From the NCBI RefSeq assembly GCF_963675165.1, contig NC_087387.1, positions 6,688,084-6,752,083 of the forward strand: a stretch of DNA of 64,000 bases, written 5' to 3'. This document shows positions 4,449 through 64,000 of this stretch, one piece after another. This stretch comes from Halichondria panicea. Lineage: Eukaryota; Porifera; Demospongiae; Suberitida; Halichondriidae. The translations under genes were made by a program, and so were the position numbers. Positions within the stretch are counted from its first letter, which is position 1; each line of letters starts with the position of its first letter. Under the pieces are notes generated by a model. That model searched no databases, was not told the origin of the DNA, and worked only from the letters and a program-made list of their open reading frames with translations.

Positions 4449-5674
4449 ATGGAGATCATCAATCTGTTATTTATTGTACTGGTAACACTGACAATATTTT
4501 CGGGGACTCAAAGTAAGTAGATTAATATCTATACCTATAATAGCTAGTATTAACATACTTTATAGATCTGTGCTTGTTGGACAGTCTGTAAATCTATATA
4601 ATTTATAGGCTGTTCTCATGGAGATATTCGACTGGAAAGTGGTGATGGTCCACTGAATAGTAATGGTGCTGTACAAGTTTGCCATGGCAACGTGTGGAAA
4701 AGTATCTGTAGAAATAGTGGATGGTCAAGTGAAGAGGCGAATGTAGTCTGTAGCCAGCTTGGATATAGCAACCAAGGCATGTGCTTAAATTGATGTATCT
4801 TTGAGTGAAAACTGTGCATGTTTATATATACGTTCGTATAAATGCCTTTCACCTAATGAAAATGGAATGTGGACTGTCTTGGTACCGAACACTTGAATGT
4901 GACTACGTCAATAACCCTACATGTAACCAAGGTGGAGGTTGCAGTGGTTTGAAGAGAGATGCCACTGTGAGCTGCTTGCTAGGTAATCTCTTTTAAAAAT
5001 GTTTAGGTTCCAATTGTCAATTGCACCGTGTATAGTAAACTGCAGTAACGTGTCTAAAGCAAGATTTCGTTACCCGACTAGTGAACCAAGAATGTACTAC
5101 GAACTGTGAAACAATGTCAACTAGTACAGAAGTTAGTGATGATCAGTCAACAGTGCCAACAACTGAGAACATTTCTCACGGAAGTAGTCAAAACTGTGCC
5201 ATTGCATCCAGTGCCACAAGCGAAGTAGAACAACCCTCCAGCAAAATGGTGGAAAACAATAACTGTACATGTCCAATTGCCTCCTTGGGAGGAGTGATTG
5301 GTCTTCTGGTTGGTCATGCTCCTAGGACTTGCTATTGGATTGACTGTAACTTGCTGTGTGTTGGGGAAACACAGGTCACAGAAACAGCAAGCTGAGTGAG
5401 TCTGTGAGCATATGTTTTCATTGAGTGTGTTGTTGTTTCACAATTGCTTGTTGATTGTTGATAGTAATAATTATTAAAGGCACTATTAATTTGACTTTCT
5501 GGCTTTTCTCCATGCATGCAATGCAGCAACAGTTCTCAAGTGCAAGAGCTCTCGACAATTCTAAACAACCCAGTGGACAATGTGAGCATGGAATCAAACA
5601 ATGCCTACAGCTCCAGTGGACCCATTTACGAACAAGTTGCCAATGGCAATGAGCAAGATCACACTGTGGTATCC
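4449..5674 (+). pseudogene. A1: SRCR receptor pseudogene, family A
   Basis: Exon 1 (4449-4512) is a signal peptide, MEIINLLFIVLV. Exon 2 (4609-4776) is an intact half SRCR domain from CSHGDIRLESG to VVCSQLGYSNQG, followed by a GC-type donor (GCATGT). Exon 3 (about 4826-4982) has lost its acceptor and part of its middle. A deletion near 5047 fuses the first bases of exon 4 to the middle of exon 5 out of frame. The TM segment has a frame shift giving APRTCYWID in place of the usual helix. The tail exon (about 5527-5674) is the short T3 form, YEQV...HTVVS. Five sorts of damage make it a pseudogene. A4 (52092-53614) is its close relative. Confidence 0.82.
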
Positions 5675-5689
5675 TGACTTCTCCGCATG

Positions 5690-6560
5690 TATTTTATGTG
5701 TTCAACTTTACATTATGGTTATCTTTATAATTATATATAATAATATGGATTGTTTTTGGTCACATGCATGCTTACTTATCTAGCTTGATTGTGCAGTTCA
5801 CTCCTGTTTAACCTGTCGATCCACGGCACGGGAATAATGGGATAATGAGTAAATAGCTTCTATAATTATGCTCTGCTAGACACATACACGTAGATCTACT
5901 TCACAGGGTCAACCGTAAGACGACCATGCTTGGACTCAACCGCTGAAAATTACATATGGGAACGAACTTTTTTGAGTTTGGATGGTCGCTGGAGTACTAT
6001 GTTAATTCATAACTGGTAGAATATAATTATTTACTCTACGCTGGGTTTCCCAACTGAAGGTATAAGGACAGTGAACACTCAAATCATGCAGCTAATAGTT
6101 GCCGTGTGTGTCTAATGATTATAAGGTCAGAAGCAGTTATTACTTTTGGCCATGGAACAGCCCCAATAGAATTAGTTCCTCAGGCTACACTGCGTAAACA
6201 TTGCAGACTGATCTGTTGAGAGCGAAGACATACCAAGATGGTATCGGTTCAGTTATTTATAGGACAATCGATCAAACCCTTATTCAGACGTGTCCTGAAC
6301 CAACTACCATCAGCGAGTCAGCCAACCACTAACATGCAGCCAGCAAACCACGACCAGCGGAACAAATCAACCAATCACTTACAGTGAACCACCAGCAAAA
6401 CAAGTCCACCATTATATAATGAAAATTAATGGTGAAGCTGTCCTATTGCTGCCTTGGGAAGAGTGATTGGTCTTCTGGTGATTGTTCATAGATTTGCTGT
6501 TGGATTGTGTGTTGGAGAAACGAAGGTCACAGAAACAGTGAGCTGAATGAGTCTCCATGT
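5690..6560 (+). pseudogene. Degenerate B-type SRCR gene relic
   Basis: From 5820 on, sequence resembling family B exons 2 to 5 can be followed: an exon 3-like start near 5920, CTGGGTTTCCCAACTGAAGG near 6048, GGCCATGGAACAGC near 6149, and a TM-like GTGATTGGTCTTCTGG near 6460. It has many stops and shifts. The whole block is copied at 53620-54480. The first 130 bases hold nothing recognisable. Confidence 0.65.
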
Positions 6561-6771
6561 GGAATGTATAGATCTATGTTTTCATTGAGTGTGGTTTATA
6601 TTGTTGACAAAACAGCTAGCCAGCTGATTTAAAGGCACTGTTTGGCTTATTTTCTTTCTGGCTTTTATCCACTTTCAGTTCTAATTATGAGCATTTGTTA
6701 CAAATGCAGGTAGATATATTATAATAATCCATGTCTAGTTGCTGTTTAGTATAACAAGAAGCTGCAGAAAG

Positions 6772-7165
6772 ACATGGAGATCATCAAATTGTCATTTATT
6801 GGTAACACTCGATATTTTTTTTATCTATATACCTATAGTGCTTGTTGAACAGTAAAAATAATAATTATGTGTATAATTTATAGGCTATTCTCATCATGGA
6901 GATATTCGACTGGAAAGTGGTAATGGTCTACTGAATAGCAGTGGTGCTGTAAAAGTTTGCCATGACAGAGTGTGGAAAAATATGTGTAGAAATAATAGAT
7001 GGTCAAGTGAAGAGGCGAATGTAGTCTGTGCTCAGCTTGGATAACAGCAACCATAGCATGTGTTTAAAGTTCTGTACCTTTGAGTGAAAACTGTATAGGT
7101 ATACTAATTATTCGTGTTGTGGAAACACAGGTCACAGAAACAGCAAGCTGAGTGAGTCCACTGAG
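6772..7165 (+). pseudogene. A-type SRCR gene fragment
   Basis: A signal-exon start (MEIIKLSFIG-like) at 6774 is followed by one SRCR-1 exon (6884-7052) that reads HGDIRLESG...SSEEANVVCAQLG and then shifts frame (GGATAACAGCAACC). Soon after, the start of exon 3 is fused to the end of a TM exon (CACAGGTCACAGAAACAGC). SRCR-2, stalk and tail are missing. The copy at 54708-55110 reads one exon longer in frame but ends the same way. Confidence 0.7.
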
Positions 7166-7346
7166 CGTATGTTTCCGTTGTAAATGTTTGTTGATTAATT
7201 ATGAGTATTTTTATACTTTCAGTTTATCAGTTTATAATAACAATACATACATGTCAGACAGTACAATATTTCTCGTGTCTAATAGATGTCTAAATAGATC
7301 ATCATGAATTGTTGTATAAAAATCACGGAATTGTGACTTTGAAATC

Positions 7347-7354
7347 TATAAATA
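7347..7354 (+). promoter_or_regulatory. TATA-like box of C1
   Basis: TATAAATA lies 38 bp upstream of the C1 start codon. The same box precedes C2 at 55299-55306. It is the only good TATA match between the preceding relic and this gene, so it probably sets the transcription start. Confidence 0.45.
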
Positions 7355-7391
7355 TAAGCAACTTAGAGATTCAACCTGACAGGATTACAAA

Positions 7392-8938
7392 ATGATAATT
7401 CAACTCATCACAGTATCTCTTCTGTTTTTAGGAACACAAGTGTTAACACAAGGTACTAGTAGTATTTGGATACTGCATGTAACTATAGCATGTGTCTAAT
7501 GTTTATACAGCTTGCTTTCATGGAGATGTTCAATTGGTAAACGGCGACAACATTAACAAAATTGTCGAGTTCTGTTATAAGGGAGAATGGAGAAGGATCT
7601 GTGTATCTGATACGTGGAGTAACGTTGAGGCCAACATTGTCTGCTCTCAACTTGGATACAACGATCAAGGTGATACTATAATAGCTTTTCTTAACAATGA
7701 TATAGTCACTGTAAATTGTTGCTTATATAGGTGCTACGACCAGCGATGTTAGTATTAGTGAGAATTCACCCTATATGTTTTTAAGGTTTGTCAACTGTGA
7801 TGACTCCGACGGTAATATTGATGAGTGCTACTATGAAGCTCGTGCTGGCTGTAATAAAATTAATAAACACGCAAGAGTTCAATGTTTAAGTGGTAAGCAT
7901 TTCTTTAGACATTACTTAATATATATCATAGTTGTGCGCAGCTAATTGTACTGACAGTGACATTCGATTTGTGGGTGGAGCTACTGACAACGAGGGAAAA
8001 GTTGAAATATGTAACGATAGTCGTTGGATGGCAATTTGCAGCAACGGATGGACTGATCAAGATGCTGGACAGATGTACCAAAAGTTTGGATTTGCTAGCA
8101 TTGGTAGGTTCATGATAATTGGCTCGTTTCACCTATCTCTACTCTTCTGTGCAGGAGCTGAAGTGCTTGTATTCAACCCACGAAGAGTACCAACCATCAA
8201 CTGCACTATAAGCGATTCTGGCAACCTCTCTTGCAATGAATCATGTGATGATGGTACAACGGACCTAGGGATTCGTTGTGTCAGGCAGGAAGTTCTAAAC
8301 CAAAAAATAAGTGTAGAGTCGTCATGTGGTGCTGAGTTAAGCACTACAGCACTGGGGGTATTAGTTGGTTTGTTGGTGGCTCTGCTGGTGGTCTTGTTGA
8401 TTGTTTGTGGAGCAATGTGGAATCGCGTATCACAGAAACATAAACAAATGTAAGTTCATACTCTTTTACTATATGTATGTTCTACTTATGTGTTTGTCAT
8501 TTCAGACAGAGCATTTTTGTCCTACGTCTATTGTACACAGTTAATATACGTTGTACATGCAGCTGTATCTCGTCAGAAACAAGCACACTCTCAACAATTC
8601 AACGGCAACTGAACAACCCAGTATATGATACAAGCATGGAACCACACAATGCATACAGCTCCAGTGGACCTACCTACGAACAAGTTGCCAATGGTAACGA
8701 ACAAGACCACACCTACTCAATACTTGAATGCAATCAGAACACGAATCGTCGCTCAAATCAGCTCAATCCTATAGACGAGAAACAGAACTACCATGTAGTG
8801 GAGAGTGGAAGGTGTGAGGGTGTGGAGGGGGCGGGCTGTGACGGTGTGTACAGTGAAGCTAGTAACTACGAAGTGCCAATGTCAAGCAAAACGGACAGCA
8901 AGGTGTGGCTGTGTGAAGAGGAATACACCATTCAGTAA
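7392..8938 (+). CDS. C1: SRCR transmembrane receptor, family C
   Basis: Complete six-exon model, 404 residues: 7392-7452, 7511-7669, 7731-7892, 7942-8103, 8155-8449, 8563-8938, all GT-AG, phases 1,1,1,1,2. The signal peptide is MIIQLITVSLLFLG. SRCR-1 runs from FHGDVQLVNG through NIVCSQLGY to RVQCLSG. SRCR-2 runs from CTDSDIRFVGG to GIRCVRQ. The TM helix is about residues 251-272 (ALGVLVGLLVALLVVLL). The tail is the long T3 form with YEQV and YSIL nine residues apart, then NYHVV, VYSEA and NYEVP. One oddity: the conserved cysteine of the MCQKFGF segment is tyrosine here (near 8075) but cysteine in C2. An alternative tail acceptor at 8502 is also open. Probable surface receptor; ligand unknown. 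Confidence 0.85.
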
Positions 8939-9333
8939 TAATTGTTATAGATTAGAGGCTTTGCAATTTGTGTGTGTTTGTGTGTGGGTGTGTGTACACG
9001 TGTATTTTTAATGAACTGATTCTTTCCCATTGATTATTATAGATTGCTGTTGTATTGGATGGTTTAGTTGTTATGTGTCTATTATTCTAATTATTAAGAA
9101 ATCATTTTGGTTCTAGTCCCTGTAATGGTTATATACATGCATGCAGTAGCATAATAATGTTATAATGCTTTAAAGTGGTTGCTGTGACCTGTATATTCCA
9201 TAGCGGGTTATTTTCGTGGGCCCCGTAAATATTCGTTATTTTTTATAAAAGCAACGCAACAGGAAGTTACAGAAATATATATAACAGGCAGTTAGAAAGC
9301 GCCTCAAATAAGACTAGCTAGATCTAGTGAGAT
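8939..9333. other. Intergenic, C1 3' flank to B1
   Basis: No gene is seen. A GT-rich stretch lies at 8970-9000, presumably in the 3' UTR of C1. At about 9203-9240 there is half of a TATAGCGGGTTATTTTCGTG motif, the end sequence of the MITE at 19882. The block is copied at 56886-57280. Confidence 0.5.
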
Positions 9334-10205
9334 ATGAACACTCTGCTACTATTGATTTCAATCCTCATTGCTCAAGGTAATTTAAAAGTGTATAACTTCT
9401 ATTAGACTAGGTACAAGTTTACTCCCCCTCAGGCTGCATTGATGGAAAGGTACAGAGACTAGATGATGGTAGAGTCAATGTTTGTTCTGGTCAAGTATGG
9501 AAAACTGTGTGTGAGAAAAACTACCAATGGAGTGTTTATCAAGCTAATATTGCTTGCAGACTGCTGGGCTACAATAATAATGGTACATTTCTCAGAGTAA
9601 TGTATGCTTTGCTAACATTTAATCTTTGGGTCCTACAGGGGCAAGTGTGAGACGATTATGCTTGGACTCAACCGGTATTGATGTTAGTGAGTGTCGTGGA
9701 ACTCAGAATACTTTTGAAGAATGTGGAATAACTCCAAGAGATTTTAATACTTGTAGAGGTGGCTGCAGTGGTGCCCGGAGAAGACATCCTGAAATAATGT
9801 GTCTATCAGGTAAACATTTTGCTCACAACAGTTTGAGTAAATGCCGTTATGAATTGCAGCCGACTGTGCTGATGGAGAGATAAGACTGGTGGGTGGGTCC
9901 AGCATAAGAGAGGGACGAGTGGAGGTGTGTGTGGGCGGTCGCTGGGGAACTGTGCAAACAAACAATTCCCAACTGATAGAATTTGTTTGCTCTACACTGG
10001 GTTTCCCAACTGAAGGTAGGGAAAATGATGGTTGCCATGTGCGTCTAATAAATATGTTGTAGATTCAGAAGCAGTCACTACTTTTGGCCATGGAACAGCT
10101 CTGACAAGAAGCTGTGTAATAATTAATAGTACCCTCCACTGTGTGGACATTGCAGACCAGTCTGTTGATTCCAACCCAGTATACAATACAAGCATGGAAC
10201 TATGA
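9334..10205 (+). CDS. B1: truncated, possibly secreted SRCR protein
   Basis: Exons 9334-9376, 9433-9582, 9639-9809, 9860-10015 and 10063-10205 give an open frame of 220 residues. They comprise a signal peptide (MNTLLLLISILIAQ), SRCR-1 (CIDGKVQRLDDG...IMCLSG) and most of SRCR-2 (CADGEIRLVGG...LHCVDIADQ). The last exon then jumps in frame to tail sequence (NPVYNTSMEL) and stops. A deletion removed the end of SRCR-2, stalk, TM helix and most of the tail, so the product would be soluble. A MITE end and the LINE lie directly downstream. It could be a decaying gene or a functional secreted form. The copy at 57281-58156 has a 4-nt frameshift. Confidence 0.6.
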
Positions 10206-10225
10206 TGAACAGGCAAATATATAGC

Positions 10226-10244
10226 TAGCCTCGATCCCAGGCCG
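10226..10244. repeat. Single TIR of the hairpin element at 40851
   Basis: TAGCCTCGATCCCAGGCCG matches the first 19 bases of the 102-bp hairpin element at 40851-40952. Only this end is present here and in the copy near 58177-58195. It lies four bases from the LINE poly(T) end. Confidence 0.7.
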
Positions 10245-10245
10245 C

Positions 10246-10247
<2 letters not shown>

Positions 10248-10283
<36 letters not shown>

Positions 10284-11726
10284 AAAGATTTAGCAATTAA
10301 TTGCAAGGATACACAAATAGCTACAAAGCTAGGGTGAAGTGAGTCCTATAACATACGCTTTAATAGTTACAACATGTCAACTAGATGTGAATACAGATGA
10401 GACTTAAATGAACTTATACTAGTACAGTCTACTAAAGTAAAGTCCTTGTGGCTAACCAGCCTATTCCATATTGTGATTGCATGCGGAAAAAATGAGAATT
10501 TGTAAAAGGATGTTCTACATTGGTAGGGGACCAGAGTAAAATAGTTAACAGTTCTACTACTGTACGTCATATTTCTCTTGGTTGCTGGGTTGTTTGGGAA
10601 GTCAGTTAGATTGTGTAGTATTTTGAAAAGGTGGCAAAGCACCGCAGCAAGGCGCCTCAGCTGCAGAGAAGGAAGCCTGGTCAAGGTGAGTAATTCTTCA
10701 CTTTTCAAATTCCATTTCTTCAGACAGACTCTCATAGCAAATCTCTGGACTTTTTCTAAATTGTTTATTTCACACTTGTGAAATGGGTTCCATACAGAGG
10801 ATGCGTATTCCAGATGTGGTCTCACGAACGATGTATACAACTTTAACAGTGTTGTTGGAGAAGAATTCTCAGAGAACCTGCGATGTAGGAGACCTATCAA
10901 CTTCCTTGTTTTATTACAAATCGTATTGATGTGAGTGTGCCAGCTCAAGTCAGCCGATATGGTAATTCCTAAATACTTGTAGTTAGAAACCTGCTGCAGT
11001 ACATAACCATTTAGAAGTAGAGTTGGAGCCTTCAATGAGCGCGATGTTTTCTTAGAAACGGACATAAACTTACACTTGCCAAGATTAAATTCTAATAATT
11101 TAGTGTTCAAAAAATTTGAGACTTTAGAAATGTCCTTTTGAAGATTCACGTAGTCATTAGTAGATGTGATAACTCTGTATAAGGCCATGTCATCAGCAAA
11201 CATATTTAGCTTACTGTCTTGAGAAATAACATCTGTGACTTGGTTTATGTACGTAATGAACAATAGTGGACCCAAAACCGAACCTTGGGGCACACCTGAG
11301 AGAACATGTAAGCTGTCTGAGTTACTGCCATCAATACCCACAAACTGTTTCCTCTCCAGTAAGTAGCTATGCACCCAGTTTAGTAAATATTTGTTAAAAT
11401 TAAGTGACTGTAGATGTTTCAGAAGATTGACATGGGGGACAGTATCGAATGCCTTTTTGATATCAAAGAAAACTACGCATACTTCTTGACCTTGATCCAG
11501 GGCTCTACTCCAGTCTTCTATCACCTGTATTAGGGCTGAGATAGATGAGCGTGATGACATGAAGCCCCACTGCCTTGGAGATATAGGTGCCTGGTCGCAC
11601 AGGTGTTCCTGACAAAGAGACTTAACGTGTTTCTCTAAAATTTTGCTTATTGTAGGAAGTATCGAAATTGGTCTATAGTTGCTAACATGAGCGGGGTTGC
11701 CTCCCTTCAGTACAGGAACAACTCTA
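10248..11726 (-). mobile_element. 5'-truncated LINE insertion with poly(A) tail
   Basis: A run of 33 T (10248-10280) is the poly(A) tail of a - strand retroposon. Its reverse-transcriptase frame runs up to about 11726. The second copy of this region (58195-58201) has the sequence uninterrupted, going straight from GCCGCACTT to CACCGTGAAGG, which defines the borders. No target-site duplication is evident. The endonuclease and 5' part are missing, typical of truncated LINE copies. Confidence 0.92.
10367..11560 (-). CDS. LINE reverse transcriptase, C-terminal fragment
   Basis: 397 residues from the first methionine; the frame is open upstream to about 11726 and includes NYRPISILP. Non-LTR RT motifs appear in order: FDIKKAFDTVPH (catalytic Asp), GVPQGSVLGPLLF, FADDMALY (catalytic Asp pair), NYKYLGITIS, and the C-terminal HLEYASSVWNP block usual in Jockey/CR1-type elements. 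There is no stop, so the insertion is young. It is probably not expressed as a functional enzyme because the N-terminal endonuclease and start are missing. Confidence 0.9.
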   Translation of the reverse strand: MSSRSSISALIQVIEDWSRALDQGQEVCVVFFDIKKAFDTVPHVNLLKHLQSLNFNKYLLNWVHSYLLERKQFVGIDGSNSDSLHVLSGVPQGSVLGPLLFITYINQVTDVISQDSKLNMFADDMALYRVITSTNDYVNLQKDISKVSNFLNTKLLEFNLGKCKFMSVSKKTSRSLKAPTLLLNGYVLQQVSNYKYLGITISADLSWHTHINTICNKTRKLIGLLHRRFSENSSPTTLLKLYTSFVRPHLEYASSVWNPFHKCEINNLEKVQRFAMRVCLKKWNLKSEELLTLTRLPSLQLRRLAAVLCHLFKILHNLTDFPNNPATKRNMTYSSRTVNYFTLVPYQCRTSFYKFSFFPHAITIWNRLVSHKDFTLVDCTSISSFKSHLYSHLVDML

Positions 11727-12292
11727 CACCGTGAAGGCCGGTGAAGAAGGCTAATGTATAGTCAGCTTATAGATACTAGCAGTGTGAGTTGTACAGTGAG
11801 GCTGTATTTAGGGAATAGATAGGACAGGTATAATTTAGAGTGTTTCCTTTCACCCTGCATGGTTTTACTATTACGAGTTGTGACATAGATATAGATAGAT
11901 GTTATATATACATTCTTTGAGTTGAGATACCCATCAACTCTGCATGCACGTAGTATGTGTTTATGATGCAGATTGTTTGAATAGAAATAACAAAATTAAT
12001 GTTGGTTGTGATTGCATCTACATAATTAGAAGGATCCAGGAAGTAGATCTAATCCATGCATTTATTATATGGGACTGCTGCATTTATTATAATTATGACG
12101 CTGCTGCATTTATATATATCAGGTAAATATACAAATGTACGTGCTGCATTTGTATATGCAACCACTTCATTTGCTATATGCATGCATATGCTGCATTTAC
12201 ATATGGGGCACCTGCATTTTATATATATGTATTCATTTATGATGTATACGTGCAATTTGTATTAATTTTGACACAAATGGCACCCCATCCAT
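11727..12292. other. Intergenic, AT-rich
   Basis: No gene is supported. 12040-12250 contains irregular repeats of TGCATTTATATAT and TGCATTT, which give short chance frames on both strands. Copied at 58201-58754. Confidence 0.5.
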
Positions 12293-12803
12293 ACTCAACG
12301 AATACAAAACTCAACACTTAAATACTAAACACCTGTTTCTAGAATGTTCTACTAACAAAACACATGATCTAAAATGTTCTAGAATGTTCTACTAGTGATT
12401 ACTATAGTACTTGTGGTTTACCACATGATTAGCAATGTCCTGCAGCGAGACCGTGTCCTCACACTCCGCTTTGCAGGGTCGCCTGATTCTGGGAATTGCT
12501 CCACTCTGTATTGCACTCTATCTAGATTGTACTCACCTTGTGTCAGTTTGCTCTAGCTGTGTAGTTTGGCAAAAACGGGGATCGGTACGTTCTGACGAAA
12601 ATCGAAAAATTCGGTAGTTTTTTCAAGTTATCACTGCTCGGACTGGAAGCGACTTGGCCTATCCAAGTTTTCGCTGGATAATAGGCCCATGGCCATCTGT
12701 TAGTGTGTGTAATTAGTTGAATCAGTCTTATTTTGTTTGTGCGTTACACGCCCTTTTACCTGACGCACTTTGATGTCTGACGGAGTTCGGCGACTTACTC
12801 TAG
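12293..12803. repeat. Dispersed upstream repeat, copy 2 (A3)
   Basis: Nearly identical to 3755-4262, with heat-shock-like triplets at 12337-12349 and 12377-12389 and a 60-codon open frame at 12435-12617 (MSCSETVSSH...DENRKIR). Confidence 0.85.
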
Positions 12804-12989
12804 CTAAAATAATTATTGTCGTGCCATGTTTACTTGCATAAAATGTATGCATCTTATTGTATTCCTGAAGTAGTTTAAATACTGAAACCTTATGATCCAG
12901 GAAGTGAATCCAGAAAATAATAATAGTTAAGTAGAGGTCTAACTACATTTAGATTTATTTGAGTCAGTAACAAGAAGCTACAAAAATAC

Positions 12990-15804
12990 ATGGAGATCAT
13001 CAATCTGTTATTTATTGTACTGGTAACACTGACAATATTTTCGGGGACTCAAAGTAAGTAGATTAATATCTATACCTATAATAGCACACTTTATAGATCT
13101 GTGCTTGTTGGACAGTCTGTAAATTTATATAATTTATAGGCTGTTCTCATGGAGATATTCGACTGGAAAGTAGTGATGCTCTACTGACTGATAGTAGTGG
13201 TGCTGTATAAGTTTGCTATAGAAACGTGTGGAAAAGTATCTGTAGACACAATGGATGGTCAAGTGAAGAGGTGAATGTAGTCTGTAATCAGCTTGGATAC
13301 AGCAACCATAGTATGTGCTTAAATTGATGTATCCTTGAGTGAAAACTGTGCATTTTTATTATTATATATAGGTGCTAAACATTCGTATAAATGCCTTCCA
13401 CCTAATGAAAATGGATACTTCAGAAATGTGAACTGTCTTGGCACCGAACACAACTTCTTGAATGTGGCTACGTGAATAACCCTAGTACATGTAACCAAGG
13501 TGGAGGTTGCAGTGGTTTGAGGAGAGATGCCACTGTGAGCTGCTTACTAGGTAATCTCATAAAAAATAGGTTCCAATTGTCAATTTACACCGTGTAGCAA
13601 ACTGCAGTAATGGTGAAGTGCGTCTGGTGAACTCGAGAGTGGAGTCTTGTCTCAATGATCGGTGGGGAGGAGTATGCAGTGTAGGGTGGACAGAAGCAAT
13701 GGCAGGTCTCCTTTGCTCCAAACTAGGATTCTTTAATGGTAAGAATAGTTACAATCATTATTCACATGCGCTGCATGTGTTGCATGTTTACTGCATGCAA
13801 CTTTACAGTGGCTGTGATGACAACGCTTGACCCACAAGCATCTTCACAACTGGAGTGCACAGTATCCGACAACGAGAATGTCAGCTGTACTGCTACGAGT
13901 GATTGTGACATGGAATTGGGAGTGATGTGTCTAGAGCAAGATTTTGTTACCCGACTAGCTATAGCTATAGTGGACCAAAAAGATACTACGAACTGTGAAA
14001 CAATGTCAACTAGTACGAAAGTTAGTGATCATTCGGAAAGTCAGTCAACAGTGCCGACAACTGAGAACGTTTCTCAAGGAAGTAGTCAAAACGGTACCAT
14101 TGCATCTAGTGCCACAAGCGAAGTAGAACAACCCTCTAGCGAAATGTTGGGAAGCTGTCCTATTGCCTCCTTGGGAGGAGTGATTGGTCTTCTGGTGGTT
14201 GTGCTCCTAGGACTTGCTATTGGATTGACTGTAACTTGCTGTGTGTTGTGGAAACGCAGGTCACAGAAACAGCACGCTGAGTGAGTTCATTGAGCATAAT
14301 TATGTTTCCATTGAGTGCATTGTTGTTTCATGAATGTTTGTTGACAAAAGTGCCAGAGGAATAATTTTATTTGAAAGCACTATTTAGCATGTTTTCTTTA
14401 AGGCATAATTATTGTATACATTGTCCACTTTCAGTTCTAATAATAAGTATTATTGCTTTTTAATAAGTGCTGACATCAGCGTTTTACATTCAAATTGCAC
14501 AGGAAGCGACTCATCACCAAGTGTGCAGATATTTTTCCATATCGCACACCCGGAAGTATTATTGCACACTTGTTATTGCACACTAGGAAGTGATTCTTAT
14601 TTGGAATAAAACGTTTTCAGCAAGTGAGAGAACAAGAAAAACATAGTTTACACACTTATAATCATGTTGCAATGTTTATCAGTCTCTTTTCCTGTTTTCT
14701 GATGCTCTGTATCACTTCTGTGCTCTTTTTACAGTGAAGCTGAGGGTCAGGAGGTTGTCAGTGTTCATATCTAATGCATCAAACAGGCATCAATGTTGGA
14801 AGTGGGTGCTTTGAGCAGAGTATTGCACATGTAGAAGTGTACTGCACTACCATATAAGCCTGTTCAGGCTTGTATAAAGTCGTTTTGGCTTCAAAAACGG
14901 TTGTCACACTTTTCTTCAGTTATAGCGGTGCATGTTTCCTCTTCTGCTACACTGGAGCATGATAGAAAGCAAGCACATGCTGTTTATTCTTCAGAACTAT
15001 CCATTTCAAAACGGGTTGCTGGTTGTCAACGTTTTTCTTGTCTTTTTTTCTTGTCTGCTCTCTACAAAATCTTTAAGTAGCCTTCTGCAAGCTCTCTTGG
15101 TGTTCTAGAGTCTTATTTCTTTGTCTTTCTAGCTGTTTTCTTTCTCTTAAACTCGTCTTCAACTGGGAGAACTCAATTTTGTTGCTACGCGTTCTTCTGG
15201 TTGATAAAGCAACCGCATGTTGCGCATGCGCAGATTCAACCTGCATTTTGGTTGCCAAGCAATAAATGCATTATCCCATGGATACTGATGATTATCACTC
15301 GTCCGTGCCTAGTAACTGTCACTCGTGCCTTGCAGGCACTCGTGCAGTTACTGGCACAGACTCGTGATAATCTTCAGTATCCATAGGATAATATCATATG
15401 AACACGTGGCTGTTCAATGCAGGTACAATACTTCTCAAAGACAAGAGTTCTCAACAATTCAACGACAACTGAACAACCCAGTATACGATACAAGCATGGA
15501 ACCACACAATGCATACAGCTCCAGTGGACCCACTTATGAACAAGTTGCCAATGGCAATCAACAAGACCACACCTACTCAATACTTGAGCGCGATGAGAAC
15601 ACGAATCGTCGCTCAAATCAGCTCAATCCTATAGACGAGGAGCAGAACTACTATGTGGTGGAGAGTGGAAGGTGTGAGGGTGTGGAGGGGGCGGGCTGTG
15701 ATGGTGTGTACAATGAGGCTAGTAACTATGAAGTGCCAATGTCAAGCAAAACGGACAGCAAGGTGTGGCTGTGTGAAGAGGAGTACTCCACACTCAAGCA
15801 TTGA
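12990..15804 (+). pseudogene. A3: SRCR receptor pseudogene with intact long tail
   Basis: Exons: signal 12990-13053; SRCR-1 13140-13310 and 13372-13550; SRCR-2 13598-13738; SRCR-2 end, stalk and TM 13809-14280; tail 15423-15804. Exon 2 has a stop, TAA at 13208 (CAA in the second copy). Exon 3 has lost one A near 13452 (GAACACAACTT for GAACACAAACTT), which shifts the frame in both copies. The stalk is Ser/Thr-rich, and the TM (ASLGGVIGLLVVVLLGLAIG) and the long T3 tail (YEQV, x9, YSIL, then NYYVV, VYNEA, NYEVP) are undamaged. The TM/tail intron is 1.1 kb because of an insertion at about 14450-15396. Confidence 0.8.
14450..15396. mobile_element. Unidentified 0.95-kb insertion in the A3 TM/tail intron
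   Basis: Comparison with the same intron in B5 (26411-26446) shows extra sequence here, starting after TTCTAATAATAAGTAT and ending before ATGAACACGTGG. Its right end folds into an imperfect hairpin: CCCATGGATACTGATGATTATCACTCGT (15275 on) pairs with ACTCGTGATAATCTTCAGTATCC (about 15359-15381). A 61-codon frame rich in Arg and Lys lies on the - strand at 15073-15258; I do not recognise it. Class unknown. Copied at 60918-61864. Confidence 0.55.
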
Positions 15805-18241: not shown

Positions 18242-18289
18242 GTTTCTTATTCTCCATTTTAGCTGGACAGTATATACTAGGCAGTGTTC

Positions 18290-19486: not shown

Positions 19487-19881
19487 GAGTATTCTGATAC
19501 ACTTGTGAATGCTAGCAGATCTATTAAGTACTGCGAAGAGGCTAACACTTGTCGACTTTATTATATAGTTACGTAGTAATACTTTCATGTGTTGCATTTG
19601 CCCGTCTTTTGTTGTCATAGTTAACTCACAAACACAACAGTTTTTTGAACTGAGTAGGCGTTGAATGAAAGTGAATGACTTGTAGATACAAGGTTTCTTA
19701 TTTCTCTTATGGTGGTGTTTACTTTATCTCATACCCCAATATATATTGTGTACTGAGGGCTATACATTGTGAGTGGTGTGTGTACTGTGTGTTACACTGC
19801 AGAGTGTTCTGAACAATTTTGCATGTGCAATAAATAATTGGTAAAAGTTCTACTCTTGGTAATGGACAACCACAATGACAA

Positions 19882-20076
19882 TTACCGTATAGCGGGTTAT
19901 TTTCATATGGTGGAAATGTTTGTATTTTTCATCTTATCAGTGGAGCACCTCCGAAAAATAAAATTGCAACATTTTTTTGGCACAATAGGTTCAACGTCAC
20001 TATCCTGAGCTGTACGAAAATGAAAAAAGGGCAGTTTGTACGAAATTTTGCACCGAAATTACCTACTATACGGTAA
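19882..20076. mobile_element. Short MITE with TTACCGTATAG ends
   Basis: The left end TTACCGTATAGCGGGT and the right end ACCTACTATACGGTAA are inverted repeats with two mismatches; the element is about 195 bp and has no frame. The same ends occur singly near 9203, 51175 and 57147. The exact TSD (TTA/TAA or TA) cannot be told. Second copy at 29815-30009. Confidence 0.8.
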
Positions 20077-53614: not shown

Positions 53615-53749
53615 CTTCTCCGCATGTATTTTATGTGTTCAACTTTACATTATGGTTATCTTTATATTTATAATAATATGGATTGTTTTTGGTCACATGC
53701 ATGCTTACTTATCTAGCTTGATTGTGCAGTTCACTCCTGTTTAACCTGT

Positions 53750-55110: not shown

Positions 55111-55343
55111 CACTGAGCGTATGTTACCGTTGTAAATGTTTGTTGATTAATTATGAGTATTTTTATACTTTCAGTTTATCAGTTTATAATAACAATACAT
55201 ACATGTCAGACAGTACAATATTTCTCGTGTCTAATAGATTTCTAAATAGATCATCATGAATTGTTGTATAAAAATCACGGAATTGTGACTTTGAAATCTA
55301 TAAATATAAGCAACTTAGAGATTCAACCTGACAGGATTACAAA

Positions 55344-56885
55344 ATGATGATTCAACTCATCACAGTATCTCTTCTGTTTTTAGGAACACAAGTGTTAACA
55401 CAAGGTACTAGTAGTATTTGGATACTGCATGTAACTATAGCATGTGTCTAATGTTTATACAGCTTGCTTTCATGGAGATGTTCAATTGGTAAACGTTAAC
55501 AAAATTGTTGAGTTCTGTTATAAGGGAGAATGGAGAAGGATCTGTGTGTCTGATACATGGGGTAATGTTGAGGCCAACATTGTCTGCTCTCAACTTGGAT
55601 ACAGAAATCAAGGTGTTACTATAATAGCTTTTCTTAAGAGTGATATAGTCACTGTAAATTGTTGCTTATATAGGTGCTACGACCAGCGATGTTAGTATTA
55701 GTGAGAATTCATCCTATACGTTTTTAAGGTTTGTCAACTGTGATGACTCCGACGCTAATATTGATGAGTGCTACTATGAAGCTCGTGCTGGCTGTAATAA
55801 AATTAATAAACACGCAAGAGTTCAATGTTTAAGTGGTAAGCATTTCTTTATACATTACTTAATATATATCATAGTTGTGCGCAGCTAATTGTACTGACAG
55901 TGACATTCAATTTGTGGGTGGAGCTACTGACAACGAGGGAAAAGTTGAAATATGTAACGATAGTCGTTGGATGGCAATTTGCAGCAACGGATGGACTGAG
56001 CAAGACGCTGGACAGATGTGCCAAAAGTTTGGATTTGCTAGCATTGGTAGGTTCATGATAATTGGCTGGTTTCACCTATCTCTACTCTTCTGTGCAGGAG
56101 CTGAAGTGCTTGTATTCAACCCTCGAAGAGTACCAACCATCAACTGCACTATAGGCGATTCTGGCAACCTCTCTTGCAATGAATCATGTGATGATGGTAC
56201 AACGGACCTAGGGATTCGTTGTGTCAGGCAGGAAGTTCTAAACCAAAAAATAAGTGTAGAGTCGTCATGTGGTGCTGAGTTAAGCACTACAGCACTGGGG
56301 GTATTAGTTGGTTTGTTGGTGGCTCTGCTGGTGGTCTTGTTGATTGTTTGTGGAGCAATGTGGAATCGCGTATCACAGAAACATAAACAAATGTAAGTTC
56401 ATACTCTTTTACTATAATTATGTATGTTCTACTTATGTGTTTGTCATTTCAGACAGAGCATTTTTGTCCTACGTCTATTGTACACAGTTAATATACGTTG
56501 TACATGCAGCTGTATCTCGTCAGAAACAAGCACACTCTCAACAATTCAACGGCAACTGAACAACCCAGTATATGATACAAGCATGGAACCACACAATGCA
56601 TACAGCTCCAGTGGACCTACCTACGAACAAGTTGCCAATGGTAACGAACAAGACCACACCTACTCAATACTTGAATGCAATCAGAACACGAATCGTCGCT
56701 CAAATCAGCTCAATCCTATAGACGAGAAACAGAACTACCATGTAGTGGAGAGTGGAAGGTGTGAGGGTGTGGAGGGGGCGGGCTGTGACGGTGTGTACAG
56801 TGAAGCTAGTAACTACGAAGTGCCAATGTCAAGCAAAACGGACAGCAAGGTGTGGCTGTGTGAAGAGGAATACACCATTCAGTAA
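55344..56885 (+). CDS. C2: SRCR transmembrane receptor, family C
   Basis: Intact, 401 residues. Exons: 55344-55404, 55463-55612, 55674-55835, 55885-56046, 56098-56392, 56510-56885. It is nearly the same as C1 but three residues shorter in SRCR-1 (a 9-nt deletion removes Gly-Asp-Asn). It has GYRNQG for GYNDQG, and keeps the cysteine MCQKFGF that C1 lost. TM and long T3 tail (YEQV, nine residues, YSIL, NYHVV, VYSEA, NYEVP) match C1 exactly in the key residues. The TATA-like box is at 55299. Of the two copies this is the more likely to fold normally. Confidence 0.88.
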
Positions 56886-57280
56886 TAATTGTTATAGATT
56901 AGAGGCTTTGCAATTTGTGTGTGTTTGTGTGTGGGTGTGTGTACACGTGTATTTTTAATGAACTGATTCTTTCCCATTGATTATTATAGATTGCTGTTGT
57001 ATTGGATGGTTTAGTTGTTATGTGTCTATTATTCTAATTATTAAGAAATCATTTTGGTTCTAGTCCCTGTAATGGTTATATACATGCATGCAGTAGCATA
57101 ATAATGTTATAATGCTTTAAAGTGGTTGCTGTGACCTGTATATTCCATAGCGGGTTATTTTCGTGGGCCCCGTAAATATTCGTTATTTTTTATAAAAGCA
57201 ACGCAACAGGAAGTTACAGAAATATATATAACAGGCAGTTAGAAAGCGCCTCAAATAAGACTAGCTAGATCTAGTGAGAT

Positions 57281-58156
57281 ATGAACACTCTGCTACTATT
57301 GATTTCAATCCTCATTGCTCAAGGTAATTTAAAAGTGTATAACTTCTATTAGACTAGGTACAAGTTTACTCCCCCTCAGGCTGCATTGATGGAAAGGTAC
57401 AGAGACTAGATGATGGTAGAGTCAATGTTTGTTCTGGTCAAGTATGGAAAACTGTGTGTGAGAAAAACTACCAATTAATGGAGTGTTTATCAAGCTAATA
57501 TTGCTTGCAGACTGCTGGGCTACAATAATAATGGTACATTTCTCAGAGTAATGTATGCTTTGCTAACATTTAATCTTTGGGTCCTACAGGGGCAAGTGTG
57601 AGACGATTATGCTTGGACTCAACCGGTATTGATGTTAGTGAGTGTCGTGGAACTCAGAATACTTTTGAAGAATGTGGAATAACTCCAAGAGATTTTAATA
57701 CTTGTAGAGGTGGCTGCAGTGGTGCCCGGAGAAGACATCCTGAAATAATGTGTCTATCAGGTAAACATTTTGCTCACAACAGTTTGAGTAAATGCCGTTA
57801 TGAATTGCAGCCGACTGTGCTGATGGAGAGATAAGACTGGTGGGTGGGTCCAGCATAAGAGAGGGACGAGTGGAGGTGTGTGTGGGCGGTCGCTGGGGAA
57901 TTGTGCAAACAAACAATTCCCAACTGATAGAATTTGTTTGCTCTACACTGGGTTTCCCAACTGAAGGTAGGGAAAATGATGGTTGCCATGTGCGTCTAAT
58001 AAATATGTTGTAGATTCAGAAGCAGTCACTACTTTTGGCCATGGAACAGCTCTGACAAGAAGCTGTGTAATAATTAATAGTACCCTCCACTGTGTGGACA
58101 TTGCAGACCAGTCTGTTGATTCCAACCCAGTATACAATACAAGCATGGAACTATGA
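57281..58156 (+). pseudogene. B1': second copy of the truncated B gene, frameshifted
   Basis: Same exon layout as B1, but exon 2 has four extra bases (CCAATTAATGG for CCAATGG, near 57475), shifting the frame in SRCR-1. The SRCR-2 exon (57809-about 57967) and the in-frame jump into tail residues (NPVYNTSMEL) are the same. The LINE is absent downstream. Confidence 0.8.
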
Positions 58157-58754
58157 TGAACAGGCAAATATATAGCTAGCCTCGATCCCAGGCCGCACTT
58201 CACCGTGAAGGCCGGTGAAGAAGGCTAATGTATAGTCAGCTTATAGATACTAGCAGTGTGAGTTGTACAGTGAGGCTGTATTTAGGGAATAGATAGGACA
58301 GGTATAATTTAGAGTGTTTCCTTTCACCCTGCATGGTTTTACTATTACGAGTTGTGACATAGATATAGATAGATGTTATATATACATTCTTTGAGTTGAG
58401 ATACCCATCAACTCTGCATGCACGTAGTATGTGTTTATGATGCAGATTGTTTGAATAGAAATAACAAAATTAATGTTGGTTGTGATTGCATCTACAATTA
58501 GAAGGATCCAGGAAGTAGATCTAATCCATGCATTTATTATATGGGACTGCTGCATTTATTATAATTATGACGCTGCTGCATTTATATATATCAGGTAAAT
58601 ATACAAATGTACGTGCTGCATTTGTATATGCAACCACTTCATTTGCTATATGCATGCATATGCTGCATTTACATATGGGGCACCTGCATTTTATATATAT
58701 GTATTCATTTATGATGTATACGTGCAATTTGTATTAATTTTGACACAAATGGCA

Positions 58755-59271
58755 CCCCATACTCAACGAATACAAAACTCAACACTTAAATACTAAACAC
58801 CTGTTTCTAGAATGTTCTACTAACAAAACACATGATCTAAAATGTTCTAGAATGTTCTACTAGTGATTACTATAGTACTTGTGGTTTACCACATGATTAG
58901 CAATGTCCTGCAGCGAGACCGTGTCCTCACACTCCGCTTTGCAGGGTCGCCTGATTCTGGGAATTGCTCCACTCTGTATTGCACTCTATCTAGATTGTAC
59001 TCACCTTGTGTCAGTTTGCTCTAGCTGTGTAGTTTGGCAAAAACGGGGATCGGTACGTTCTGACGAAAATCGAAAAATTCGGTAGTTTTTTCAAGTTATC
59101 ACTGCTCGGACTGGAAGCGACTTGGCCTATCCAAGTTTTCGCTGGATAATAGGCCCATGGCCATCTGTTAGTGTGTGTAATTAGTTGAATCAGTCTTATT
59201 TTGTTTGTGCGTTACACGCCCTTTTACCTGACGCACTTTGATGTCTGACGGAGTTCGGCGACTTACTCTAG
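58755..59271. repeat. Dispersed upstream repeat, copy 3 (A3')
   Basis: As 12293-12803, with heat-shock-like triplets at 58805-58817 and 58845-58857 and the 60-codon frame at 58903-59085. It lacks a CCAT present near 12288. Confidence 0.85.
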
Positions 59272-59457
59272 CTAAAATAATTATTGTCGTGCCATGTTTA
59301 CTTGCATAAAATGTATGCATCTTATTGTATTCCTGAAGTAGTTTAAATACTGAAACCTTATGATCCAGGAAGTGAATCCAGAAAATAATAATAGTTAAGT
59401 AGAGGTCTAACTACATTTAGATTTATTTGAGTCAGTAACAAGAAGCTACAAAAATAC

Positions 59458-62272
59458 ATGGAGATCATCAATCTGTTATTTATTGTACTGGTAACACTGA
59501 CAATATTTTCGGGGACTCAAAGTAAGTAGATTAATATCTATACCTATAATAGCACACTTTATAGATCTGTGCTTGTTGGACAGTCTGTAAATTTATATAA
59601 TTTATAGGCTGTTCTCATGGAGATATTCGACTGGAAAGTAGTGATGCTCTACTGACTGATAGTAGTGGTGCTGTACAAGTTTGCTATAGAAACGTGTGGA
59701 AAAGTATCTGTAGACACAATGGATGGTCAAGTGAAGAGGTGAATGTAGTCTGTAATCAGCTTGGATACAGCAACCATAGTATGTGCTTAAATTGATGTAT
59801 CCTTGAGTGAAAACTGTGCATTTTTATTATTATATATAGGTGCTAAACATTCGTATAAATGCCTTCCACCTAATGAAAATGGATACTTCAGAAATGTGAA
59901 CTGTCTTGGCACCGAACACAACTTCTTGAATGTGGCTACGTGAATAACCCTAGTACATGTAACCAAGGTGGAGGTTGCAGTGGTTTGAGGAGAGATGCCA
60001 CTGTGAGCTGCTTACTAGGTAATCTCATAAAAAATAGGTTCCAATTGTCAATTTACACCGTGTAGCAAACTGCAGTAATGGTGAAGTGCGTCTGGTGAAC
60101 TCGAGAGTGGAGTCTTGTCTCAATGATCGGTGGGGAGGAGTATGCAGTGTAGGGTGGACAGAAGCAATGGCAGGTCTCCTTTGCTCCAAACTAGGATTCT
60201 TTAATGGTAAGAATAGTTACAATCATTATTCACATGCGCTGCATGTGTTGCATGTTTACTGCATGCAACTTTACAGTGGCTGTGATGACAACGCTTGACC
60301 CACAAGCATCTTCACAACTGGAGTGCACAGTATCCGACAACGAGAATGTCAGCTGTACTGCTACGAGTGATTGTGACATGGAATTGGGAGTGATGTGTCT
60401 AGAGCAAGATTTTGTTACCCGACTAGCTATAGCTATAGTGGACCAAAAAGATACTACGAACTGTGAAACAATGTCAACTAGTACGAAAGTTAGTGATCAT
60501 TCGGAAAGTCAGTCAACAGTGCCGACAACTGAGAACGTTTCTCAAGGAAGTAGTCAAAACGGTACCATTGCATCTAGTGCCACAAGCGAAGTAGAACAAC
60601 CCTCTAGCGAAATGTTGGGAAGCTGTCCTATTGCCTCCTTGGGAGGAGTGATTGGTCTTCTGGTGGTTGTGCTCCTAGGACTTGCTATTGGATTGACTGT
60701 AACTTGCTGTGTGTTGTGGAAACGCAGGTCACAGAAACAGCACGCTGAGTGAGTTCATTGAGCATAATTATGTTTCCATTGAGTGCATTGTTGTTTCATG
60801 AATGTTTGTTGACAAAAGTGCCAGAGGAATAATTTTATTTGAAAGCACTATTTAGCATGTTTTCTTTAAGGCATAATTATTGTATACATTGTCCACTTTC
60901 AGTTCTAATAATAAGTATTATTGCTTTTTAATAAGTGCTGACATCAGCGTTTTACATTCAAATTGCACAGGAAGCGACTCATCACCAAGTGTGCAGATAT
61001 TTTTCCATATCGCACACCCGGAAGTATTATTGCACACTTGTTATTGCACACTAGGAAGTGATTCTTATTTGGAATAAAACGTTTTCAGCAAGTGAGAGAA
61101 CAAGAAAAACATAGTTTACACACTTATAATCATGTTGCAATGTTTATCAGTCTCTTTTCCTGTTTTCTGATGCTCTGTATCACTTCTGTGCTCTTTTTAC
61201 AGTGAAGCTGAGGGTCAGGAGGTTGTCAGTGTTCATATCTAATGCATCAAACAGGCATCAATGTTGGAAGTGGGTGCTTTGAGCAGAGTATTGCACATGT
61301 AGAAGTGTACTGCACTACCATATAAGCCTGTTCAGGCTTGTATAAAGTCGTTTTGGCTTCAAAAACGGTTGTCACACTTTTCTTCAGTTATAGCGGTGCA
61401 TGTTTCCTCTTCTGCTACACTGGAGCATGATAGAAAGCAAGCACATGCTGTTTATTCTTCAGAACTATCCATTTCAAAACGGGTTGCTGGTTGTCAACGT
61501 TTTTCTTGTCTTTTTTTCTTGTCTGCTCTCTACAAAATCTTTAAGTAGCCTTCTGCAAGCTCTCTTGGTGTTCTAGAGTCTTATTTCTTTGTCTTTCTAG
61601 CTGTTTTCTTTCTCTTAAACTCGTCTTCAACTGGGAGAACTCAATTTTGTTGCTACGCGTTCTTCTGGTTGATAAAGCAACCGCATGTTGCGCATGCGCA
61701 GATTCAACCTGCATTTTGGTTGCCAAGCAATAAATGCATTATCCCATGGATACTGATGATTATCACTCGTCCGTGCCTAGTAACTGTCACTCGTGCCTTG
61801 CAGGCACTCGTGCAGTTACTGGCACAGACTCGTGATAATCTTCAGTATCCATAGGATAATATCATATGAACACGTGGCTGTTCAATGCAGGTACAATACT
61901 TCTCAAAGACAAGAGTTCTCAACAATTCAACGACAACTGAACAACCCAGTATACGATACAAGCATGGAACCACACAATGCATACAGCTCCAGTGGACCCA
62001 CTTATGAACAAGTTGCCAATGGCAATCAACAAGACCACACCTACTCAATACTTGAGCGCGATGAGAACACGAATCGTCGCTCAAATCAGCTCAATCCTAT
62101 AGACGAGGAGCAGAACTACTATGTGGTGGAGAGTGGAAGGTGTGAGGGTGTGGAGGGGGCGGGCTGTGATGGTGTGTACAATGAGGCTAGTAACTATGAA
62201 GTGCCAATGTCAAGCAAAACGGACAGCAAGGTGTGGCTGTGTGAAGAGGAGTACTCCACACTCAAGCATTGA
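59458..62272 (+). pseudogene. A3': second copy of A3
   Basis: Same exons as A3. The exon 2 stop of A3 is absent (CAA at 59676), but the missing A in exon 3 near 59920 remains, so the ectodomain frame is still broken. The stalk/TM exon (to 60748) and the long T3 tail (61891-62272) are intact. The 0.95-kb insertion in the last intron is also present. Confidence 0.8.
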
Positions 62273-63164
62273 GAAAACTGAATATTGTGTACTATATTTT
62301 ATACTGCATCATGTGACTGTCTTATAGAGACCTTGCAATTCGTGTGTGTCTATTTTTTCTTATTAAAATCAGTGTTTTAGTTAGATATTAGTGACTCAGA
62401 ATTTCTATTCTCTCCTTTGATTATACTTTATTACAGTCTCAATGATGTGAGGTAACTACTAATGTGAGTTGTGGTTTGAGTGATGTAATGTGTGTCCAAA
62501 TAAATCTTATTAGTTCTGATTCTCAATCAACATATAAAATGTACAGTCTAAATGGAATTCAGTTCCTAGGTACTATGAGATTAGCGCACATATACACAGT
62601 TATAATTTAGTAGCCCTGGTAGATCACCTGATTTCCTGCATGCCCTTCTCCACTCCATTAACACAGACCTGAAACACTCCAGGCAGTTACCCAGTCCTCT
62701 GGTCCACTCTGCATATATATACGGACATCACCATGGATACAAGCCGTACCTATACAATGGTAGCAAAATGTAATCGAGCTTTTGGATTATGTACAACAGT
62801 TTTTTGACTGAAAAAAAGCGTTTTACAATAAGTTCTTGAGTACAGTGACTGCATAGCCAATGGAGCTTATTCTGTACACAGCAAGTGATACTAGTGTTCA
62901 GTCCCTGAAAACAAAAACATATTCTAAGAATTCTAACAGTTGCTCAATAGCCCTAGAGATAACTTTCAAGAAGACCCAGTATTCATTAATTCTTTGATTG
63001 TTTTCACCTCATGATTCAACTGTGAATTGTGATTACTGTTGTACAATCAGTGTTATGATGCATACACAAAGGTATAATTATGTATTAACTATGTAGCTAC
63101 TATGATGACAGACTGCAAGTGTGTCTCTACACACTATAGCTATATATAACTGTAGTTGCAAGGC
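62273..63164. other. Spacer between A3' and D1'
   Basis: Second copy of 15805-16696. No gene. Confidence 0.5.
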
Positions 63165-64000
63165 TCATTCTCCCCCAGCATTATTCCTTTTCTTCTTATT
63201 GACAGCTACGTACATATGAACCTCTGTATTGAAGAACTCATCTACTTCACTCTTACTGGCCTCAACCTTCACTGGTGGTGGGTTGGCTGGTTTCAGTTTC
63301 TGTTTTTTGTGATCAATGACATCATAGTCACCAATTCCTTCATCGCTTGTAGTCACAGTATTGTAGTTAGGACCTAGTGAACTGTAGCTCGGTTCTATAG
63401 GAGCTGTGTCAGTGTAGCTCTCATTCACTTGTATTAAAACTCTGCATGTTATAGCATATAATTATAGGATGCAAAGTTAGCTTTGTTTTGTTGGAATTAA
63501 GCGCCTTTTCCTACAATCCACCCACGCAATAACTGTCCCTACTTCCAGTATAGCACCAAAAGTCCAATCACTGATCCTAGTGCACTGGTAGCTATTGTAT
63601 CACTGAACGATGGACACTCAACGGCTAAACCTCGAACACATAACCCACTGTCAGTGATGTTCCCACAGCTCAACCTATTGTTGGTATCGACGTTACAGTT
63701 AATTTGTGGGCCAGTTGTATTCATTTCCTTCGCTGCTGCTCCTACAAAAATTGTTTTAATTTGCTGTGAATAAGTTTCTTACCTTGGCTTGGAAATCCTA
63801 GCTGAGAGCAAACATGTCCAGCTAGTGCTTGGTTGTAGCATATTGTACCCCATCGCTTGTTCTGACACACCTCCACTCGTCCTTGTTTTATGTTGGACCC
63901 ACCCACTAGTCTTAGGGCTCCATCAGCACAGTTAGCTTAGTTTATGATTAGACTAAAAATCACGTTACCTGGAATGTATTTTACCCATCCTTGTCTGTTT
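63165..64000 (-). pseudogene. D1': second copy of D1, cut by the window end
   Basis: Tail T1 exon 63165-63441, TM exon with the same GLLVLYWK frameshift as D1, SRCR-2 exon about 63780-63935, and the start of the SRCR-1 second exon at the window edge. The signal exon lies outside, so it cannot be told whether the SRCR-1 stop of D1 is shared. Confidence 0.75.

Follow-up and report, generated by a model that had tools for sequence, protein, structure and literature searches.

Paired tyrosine motifs in the tails of a tandem SRCR receptor family of the sponge Halichondria panicea: candidate inputs to Src, Syk and Shark

Introduction

What would read the paired tyrosines on the inner ends of sponge SRCR receptors? 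The question is raised by a 64,000-base stretch of the Halichondria panicea genome (the window: positions 6688084–6752083 of contig NC_087387.1, here C11, ending ∼57 kb from one end of that 6,808,682-base contig in a genome of 131 Mb). It encodes a cluster of receptors with SRCR ectodomains, a transmembrane (TM) segment, and cytoplasmic tails in which two tyrosine motifs recur at a short and mostly constant distance. The classical immunoreceptor tyrosine-based activation motif (ITAM) consists of two cytoplasmic YxxL/I motifs 6–12 residues apart, and the inner ends of these receptors look like the tyrosine switches of human immune receptors. Taking the tails together with the kinase and phosphatase genes of the same genome, we lean toward the reading that they belong to SRCR engulfment or immune receptors signalling via Src and then Syk or Shark.

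Results

Paired Motifs in the Window

The window holds 16 tails, which we label T3 (six, all on the plus strand), T1 (five, all minus), T2 (four, three minus and one plus), and F (one, minus). A preliminary description of this locus reported two motifs separated by nine residues, and YxxV/I-x9-YxxI/L is indeed found in 15 of the 16 tails; F has a spacer of 10, with one residue inserted relative to T1 and T2. The same description noted that T1 and T3 share YSSxGPxY and that Val is often found at +3. Both observations hold, the first +3 residue being mostly Val in the window tails, with a strict YxxL/I pair there only in T3d. A bare regular expression is a weak tool for this motif, giving many six-frame matches outside the 16 tails. 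Against shuffled sequence, motif pairs are enriched in the tails (14 in 11 representative tails; shuffle mean 0.44, maximum 5, 5,000 shuffles), an excess that does not amount to 11 independent events because the 11 tails are relatives. The tails, each with its motif pair and spacer (module), and the upstream exons of one gene are as follows.

7555–8240, plus: SRCR exons of the T3a gene (local SRCR hidden Markov model, Pfam PF00530, three-frame view)
8349–8408, plus: predicted TM segment of T3a, mean hydropathy 3.27
8540–8935, plus: T3a tail, LNNPVYDTS...YSSSGPTYEQV-x9-YSIL..., module 8675–8725
15400–15801, plus: T3b tail, module 15535–15585; TM in open reading frame 13727–14281, which ends ∼1.1 kb upstream of the tail frame
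26433–26825, plus: T3c tail, module 26559–26609; TM frame broken, probable pseudogene
42355–42732, plus: T3d tail, divergent, module 42490–42540 kept, upstream tyrosines lost; TM ∼42196–42255
56487–56882, plus: T3e tail, copy of T3a (identical over the compared stretch), module 56622–56672; TM ∼56292–56351
61868–62269, plus: T3f tail, copy of T3b (identical over the compared stretch), module 62003–62053; no TM in the hydropathy scan
16700–16987, minus: T1a tail, module 16847–16897; probable pseudogene, the frames of the TM and of the first SRCR being interrupted
28042–28314, minus: T1b tail, module 28180–28230; TM ∼28398–28457
34560–34844, minus: T1c tail, module 34704–34754; TM ∼34924–34983
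46673–46957, minus: T1d tail, module 46817–46867; TM found by eye in open reading frame 46968–47390, missed by the hydropathy scan
63168–63455, minus: T1e tail, copy of T1a (identical over the compared stretch), module 63315–63365; no TM in the hydropathy scan
22404–22616, minus: T2a tail, T1-like but shorter, module 22476–22526; TM ∼22698–22757
32481–32693, minus: T2b tail, module 32553–32603; TM ∼32776–32835
36724–36858, minus: T2c tail, module 36775–36825; TM ∼36993–37052
48680–48892, plus: T2d tail, module 48770–48820; TM ∼48543–48602
43359–43736, minus: F tail, YANV-x10-YDII, module 43665–43718; TM ∼43908–43967

T3d is instructive in that the NPVY tyrosine, two other tyrosines, and the last tail tyrosine are all gone, and YEQI-x9-YSIL is retained.

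A Tail Family on One Contig

The locus had been taken as part of a large set of related receptors, and this proved correct: 91 distinct tails were read, filling C11. Single-protein searches with a T1 tail, a T3 tail, and a tail of the 5.83-Mb type returned at least 85, 52, and 74 matches, respectively, in overlapping sets. All were on C11, in clusters at 5.44–5.47, 5.53–5.59, 5.83–5.96, 5.97–6.02, and 6.63–6.80 Mb with outliers at 1.83 and 2.76–2.82 Mb, except for one weak match on C13 (E 0.88, from the 5.83-Mb-type query). A subset of these matches, 79 further loci, was joined to the 16 window tails to give 95, of which 91 are distinct. The C13 match itself (695000–695700) is a tyrosine-rich frame of more than 190 residues (YETV, YDIL, YSQL, YSLI, YDVP) and may be an adaptor or a further receptor tail.

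Outside the window the modules vary in composition. The G tails, mostly at 5.83–5.93 Mb, read LNNPVYDG...YSSHGPSYEVI-x9-YDVI...EEYSTL-x7-YHTL-x8-YSMV...DYEVP...EEYSTLKH. G2 tails (5.93–5.96 Mb) carry YEQV-x7-YDVI plus YSTL-x8-YHVL, G3 tails carry YELV-x6-YDII plus YSTL-x8-YQIL, and G4 tails stop early, after YEVV-x9-YDVI. Strict YxxL/I pairs occur in 16/16 G, 6/8 G2, 3/3 G3, 1/5 of the 5.44–5.47 Mb, and 1/10 of the T3 tails, and in none of the other 49; a YSTL-YxxL ITAM is present in 21 of the 91. NPVY is found in 32 of the 91, among them 11/16 G and 5/8 G2 tails. T1 and T2 lack it, whereas T3 tails carry it together with a +3 residue that is mostly Val.

Common Descent of the Tails

Is the module all that these tails have in common? 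The preliminary description implied that tails unlike in other respects have the motif in common, and stated that T1, T2, and T3 differ in most residues. The first idea is not supported as it stands, and the second does not hold for T1 and T2. T1, T2, and F tails align together (37–90% identity to the first row), three T2 tails are 61–68% identical to the first T1 row, and T2 tails resemble T1 tails terminated before the third YxxV of T1. Profile–profile comparison of tail groups, covering 77 of the 91 tails, relates T3 to the 5.83–5.93 Mb tails (T3 vs. G, probability 97.8, E 7e-13) and T1/T2 to the tails at 5.44–5.59 Mb and at 5.97–6.01 Mb (97.4–99.9). Cross-branch links are less firm. The best is T1/T2 against G2, at 92, with T1/T2 against G at 76; direct comparisons of T3 with T1/T2 gave 2.6 and 30, and several other pairs were near zero (G against the 5.53–5.59 Mb set, 0.8; T3 against the 5.97–6.01 Mb set, 0.5). 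The link between the branches rests on T1/T2 vs. G2 together with T3 vs. G.

On these alignments and profiles, T1 forms one family with T2 and F, to which T3 is more distantly related. Descent from a common tail is firm within the two branches, T1/T2/F included, and moderate between them (T1 vs. T3). The layout common to the window tails is therefore largely inherited. A motif common to otherwise unrelated tails is rejected within branches; between branches the evidence is mixed.

Spacing and Constraint

The fixed nine-residue spacing, which describes the window well, does not extend to the genome, and it is ruled out as a family rule. In the 80 of 91 tails where it could be measured, the spacing was 6 (3 tails), 7 (7), 9 (51), 10 (4), 12 (14), or 15 (1), so that 79 of 80 lie within 6–12. 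This census is a description and not a test, as its pattern included already-seen variants (Ala, Gly, and other residues at +3). Changes in spacing arise via insertion or deletion between the motifs.

Constraint was assessed in 78 of the 91 tails, in nine groups, omitting nine broken, partial, or odd tails, the three G3 tails, and F. Substitutions were counted by parsimony on trees built with FastTree, and the ratio of nonsynonymous to synonymous rates (dN/dS) was taken relative to a pooled synonymous rate. Whole-tail dN/dS was 0.29–0.53 in eight of the nine groups and 0.89 in the ninth. The module tyrosines had the lowest value, ∼0.14 (4 nonsynonymous changes in 18 columns), followed by the +3 residues at 0.26, other tyrosines at 0.43, the rest of the tail at 0.51, and the spacer at 0.54. 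In permutations with random column pairs, P was 0.0036 for the module tyrosines and 0.0009 when the +3 columns were included (0.085% of draws); P stayed at 0.0009–0.008 when groups were left out. The expected constraint on the pair is therefore borne out relative to the rest of the tail, for the tyrosines and +3 residues alike; relative to the other tail tyrosines it is not significant, a point taken up below.

SRCR Exons and TM Segments

The SRCR-TM-tail layout proposed earlier agrees with SRCR profile matches, Pfam, a hydropathy scan, and reading by eye. A local profile, for which 20 SRCR domains were taken from this genome, detects SRCR exons across most of the window and on either strand. 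Among ten submitted window frames, PF00530 exceeded its 26.1-bit cut-off in two (29.3 bits for 7489–7749 and 27.9 for 45090–45767), fell just under it in a third (24.6 bits for 7932–8450), and had no match in the remaining seven. The ten window frames scanned contained no EMI or EGF domain; window ectodomain exons match SRCR. The hydropathy scan found a TM segment 0.2–0.4 kb upstream of the module in 11 of the 16 window tails, including the frame-broken T3c, and reading by eye adds T3b and T1d. Outside the window, SRCR exons and a TM precede the tails at both larger loci checked (L086 and L088), and at the short locus L087 a TM is present and SRCR matches are marginal.

The T1 and T2 TM segments, such as 28398–28457 on the minus strand, have a conserved Glu in midspan (LLEVGTVIAW). 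Acidic TM residues are typical of vertebrate ITAM adaptors. This Glu may mean nothing, since Gln takes its place in F, and it is missing from T3 and from the remaining TM segments that were seen.

The preliminary description also raised self-recognition. Neither this nor diversifying selection found support: amino-acid changes are not in excess in the SRCR exons, with a pooled ratio of nonsynonymous to synonymous differences (pN/pS) of 0.63 (74 pairs, 43 exons).

Candidate Readers in the Same Genome

Homologues of Syk and SHP had been suggested as a search, and both were found, along with Shark and Src; PF00017 gave 71 SH2 matches in the genome. The Syk gene (loci L082 and L112) has two SH2 exon sets and kinase exons bearing HRDLAARN and DFG. 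Its second SH2 is closest to SYK (2e-39) and then ZAP-70, the next family being GRB7 (5e-18); the short kinase exon alone was nondiagnostic against the PDB, EGFR and IGF1R ranking alongside SYK. The Shark gene has SH2, ankyrin repeats, SH2, and kinase on one strand (L081), which is the Shark layout, and the SHP-2 gene has SH2, SH2, and phosphatase, closest to PTPN11 (L084; 4e-58). Src (L115; closest SRC 8e-160, ABL1 3e-120) is one of three SH2-kinase genes at C2:7.249–7.256 Mb. A PLC-gamma-like gene was recognized by eye at L083.

Related gene families show features of their own. C4 at ∼0.3–2.6 Mb carries a tandem phosphatase gene expansion that holds most Y_phosphatase matches among the matches listed, and at ∼15.5–17.4 Mb on C1 there are at least 26 kinase-like matches, each full-length and in a single frame, distributed over the two strands. 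At L085 (C7:578500–586500), SH2-kinase exons, Csk- or Src-like by eye, are followed directly by long frames resembling Roco-type GTPases, as one gene or two neighbors.

Duplications and Neighboring Sequence

Three window tails are exact copies of others (T3a=T3e, T3b=T3f, and T1a=T1e). A direct duplication of 5.8 kb (11724–17532 and 58198–64000, 99.8% identity) holds the T3b/T3f and T1a/T1e copies, and another of 5.2 kb (5044–10249 and 52981–58200, 97.2%) holds T3a/T3e; a third joins 18787–22308 and 28717–32227 (98.0%). These duplications are recent, and gene counts in the window overstate the number of independent genes. Frames are broken in T1a (16.9 kb; TM and first SRCR) and T3c (26.5 kb; TM). 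In the flanks of the window, many tail matches at C11 6.636–6.67 Mb are mirrored at 6.76–6.797 Mb with a constant coordinate sum of 13432128, and the two mirror copies did not differ over the 2,001 bases tested. The symmetry reflects an inverted duplication of very recent date or else an error of assembly. An open reverse transcriptase frame at 10367–11761 on the minus strand (PF00078, E 1e-36) represents a retrotransposon fragment or copy.

Discussion

Engulfment or immune signalling via Src and then Syk or Shark could proceed as follows. SRCR domains would bind a particle, a microbe, or a cell, the ligand and cell type being conjectural, and the receptors would cluster. A Src kinase would then phosphorylate the paired YxxV/I/L tyrosines, and the tandem SH2 domains of Syk, Shark, or both would dock on the doubly phosphorylated pair, leading to engulfment or activation. 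SHP-2 would be able to reverse the signal, and the NPVY of one branch may recruit a phosphotyrosine-binding (PTB) or clathrin adaptor.

Several observations weigh against this proposal. Strict YxxL/I pairs are present in only 27 of the 91 tails. The 5.53–5.59 Mb tails read YSRL-x12-YDYA, without a second YxxI/L, the two tyrosines, the Leu, and the Ala being invariant in the 15 tails used. Eleven of the 91 tails have no visible pair, some being cut short, while in others a tyrosine has been replaced by Ser or His or the spacer is gone. Module tyrosines do not differ significantly in rate from other tail tyrosines (P 0.095, or 0.16 without fast-changing columns), and the data therefore favor constraint on tail tyrosines generally. 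No GULP/CED-6 orthologue was identified among nine PTB matches, of which two were read and neither shown to be GULP/CED-6. Finally, YxxPhi and NPxY motifs double as endocytosis signals.

For this last reason the chief alternative is endocytic sorting, which we consider unlikely. The tails would be those of scavenger receptors, with YxxPhi binding AP-2 and NPVY binding clathrin or PTB adaptors, so that cargo is taken up without phosphotyrosine signalling and multiple motifs raise avidity. YxxPhi motifs are certainly many (40 in the 11 representative tails against a shuffle mean of 10.5), NPVY is found in about a third of the family, SRCR proteins are often scavenger receptors, and constraint may extend to all tail tyrosines, beyond the pair. 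However, a single YxxPhi suffices for AP-2, which leaves retention of the pair unexplained, and the acidic residues beside the tyrosine (YEVI, YDVI, YEQV) suit SH2 sites. One tail may serve both signalling and endocytic sorting.

We judge it quite unlikely that the tails are phosphotyrosine sequences read mainly by SHP-2, PLC-gamma, or single-SH2 adaptors, which would make these inhibitory or costimulatory receptors like CD5, CD6, and WC1 rather than ITAM receptors. The immunoreceptor tyrosine-based inhibitory motif (ITIM) follows the pattern [I/V/L/S]-x-Y-x-x-[L/V/I], and Val at +3 is common at ITIM-type sites. The 91 tails contain 12 scattered matches to the pattern, representative tails have 3 to 9 tyrosines each, SHP-2 and PLC-gamma-like genes are present, and CD5 itself bears an ITAM-like motif (PMC8158487). 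Yet the ITIM residue at −2 fits just 5 of 160 module motifs, by which ITIM is rejected as a family feature, and other branches have strict ITAM pairs.

It is very unlikely that the layout is mere common ancestry, kept in a tandem family that is young, has partly decayed, and now does little: the recent duplications (one inverted and identical over its test stretch), broken copies, and losses of motif tyrosines would suit it, but tail dN/dS is in the range given above in eight of nine groups and is lowest at the tyrosines.

If Src–Syk/Shark signalling is accepted, a broader proposal can be offered, though only tentatively: an expanded SRCR family that has ITAMs within the receptor chain itself and signals through the sponge's Syk and Shark would supply the receptors so far missing for sponge Syk, as well as a non-Ig ITAM system of engulfment or immunity at the base of the animals. 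Syk-family kinases have been reported from sponges (PMC9486129, PMC9601881). Within the open-licence literature, which leaves most subscription journals outside, we found in the text consulted no account of what these kinases read and no description of ITAM-like tails on sponge SRCR receptors. The occurrence of a paired-YxxPhi receptor family with Syk, Shark, Src, and SHP-2 in one genome opens the target of sponge Syk to direct test, and might reveal how microbe recognition is linked to engulfment in a filter feeder.

It is useful to set this family beside known systems. The allorecognition receptors of Hydractinia have Ig-type ectodomains. Receptors of the Hydractinia and Botryllus allorecognition loci resemble those described here in that motifs of the ITAM type or ITIMs occur together with a Syk-type pathway, and those of Botryllus differ in their Ig-type ectodomains, where ours are SRCR (PMC12065747). 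Oyster CgIgIT2, likewise a membrane receptor of an invertebrate, carries a classic ITAM of its own and recognizes bacteria, but it is a molluscan protein with five Ig domains, and a single gene is named (PMC11999971).

CD5, CD6, and WC1, co-receptors on vertebrate lymphocytes, share the SRCR ectodomain, one TM, and a tyrosine-bearing tail, the comparison being at the level of layout and YxxPhi. Sponges are not known to have lymphocytes. Bovine WC1 is encoded by multiple genes, among which tail types are distinguished (PMC3511184). Among sponges, Amphimedon queenslandica has a comparable massive tandem SRCR expansion, of 296 genes; the words "ITAM" and "tyrosine" are absent from the main text of that paper (PMC10855680).

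The system of Draper, MEGF10, and CED-1 offers likeness in the tail. These are single-pass receptors with NPxY and/or ITAM-type tyrosines. Draper bears both NPxY and an ITAM and works with Src42a and Shark; once Src has acted, Shark or Syk reads the tails of Draper and MEGF10, and Corkscrew, the orthologue of SHP-2, reverses Draper signalling (PMC8092387). Genes for such partners are present here, and many of the 5.83–5.96 Mb tails likewise combine NPVY with a strict ITAM pair, as in Draper and MEGF10. Their ectodomains are of the EMI/EGF kind, whereas in H. panicea a large tandem family, with NPVY absent in T1/T2, presents SRCR domains above its tyrosine-bearing tails.

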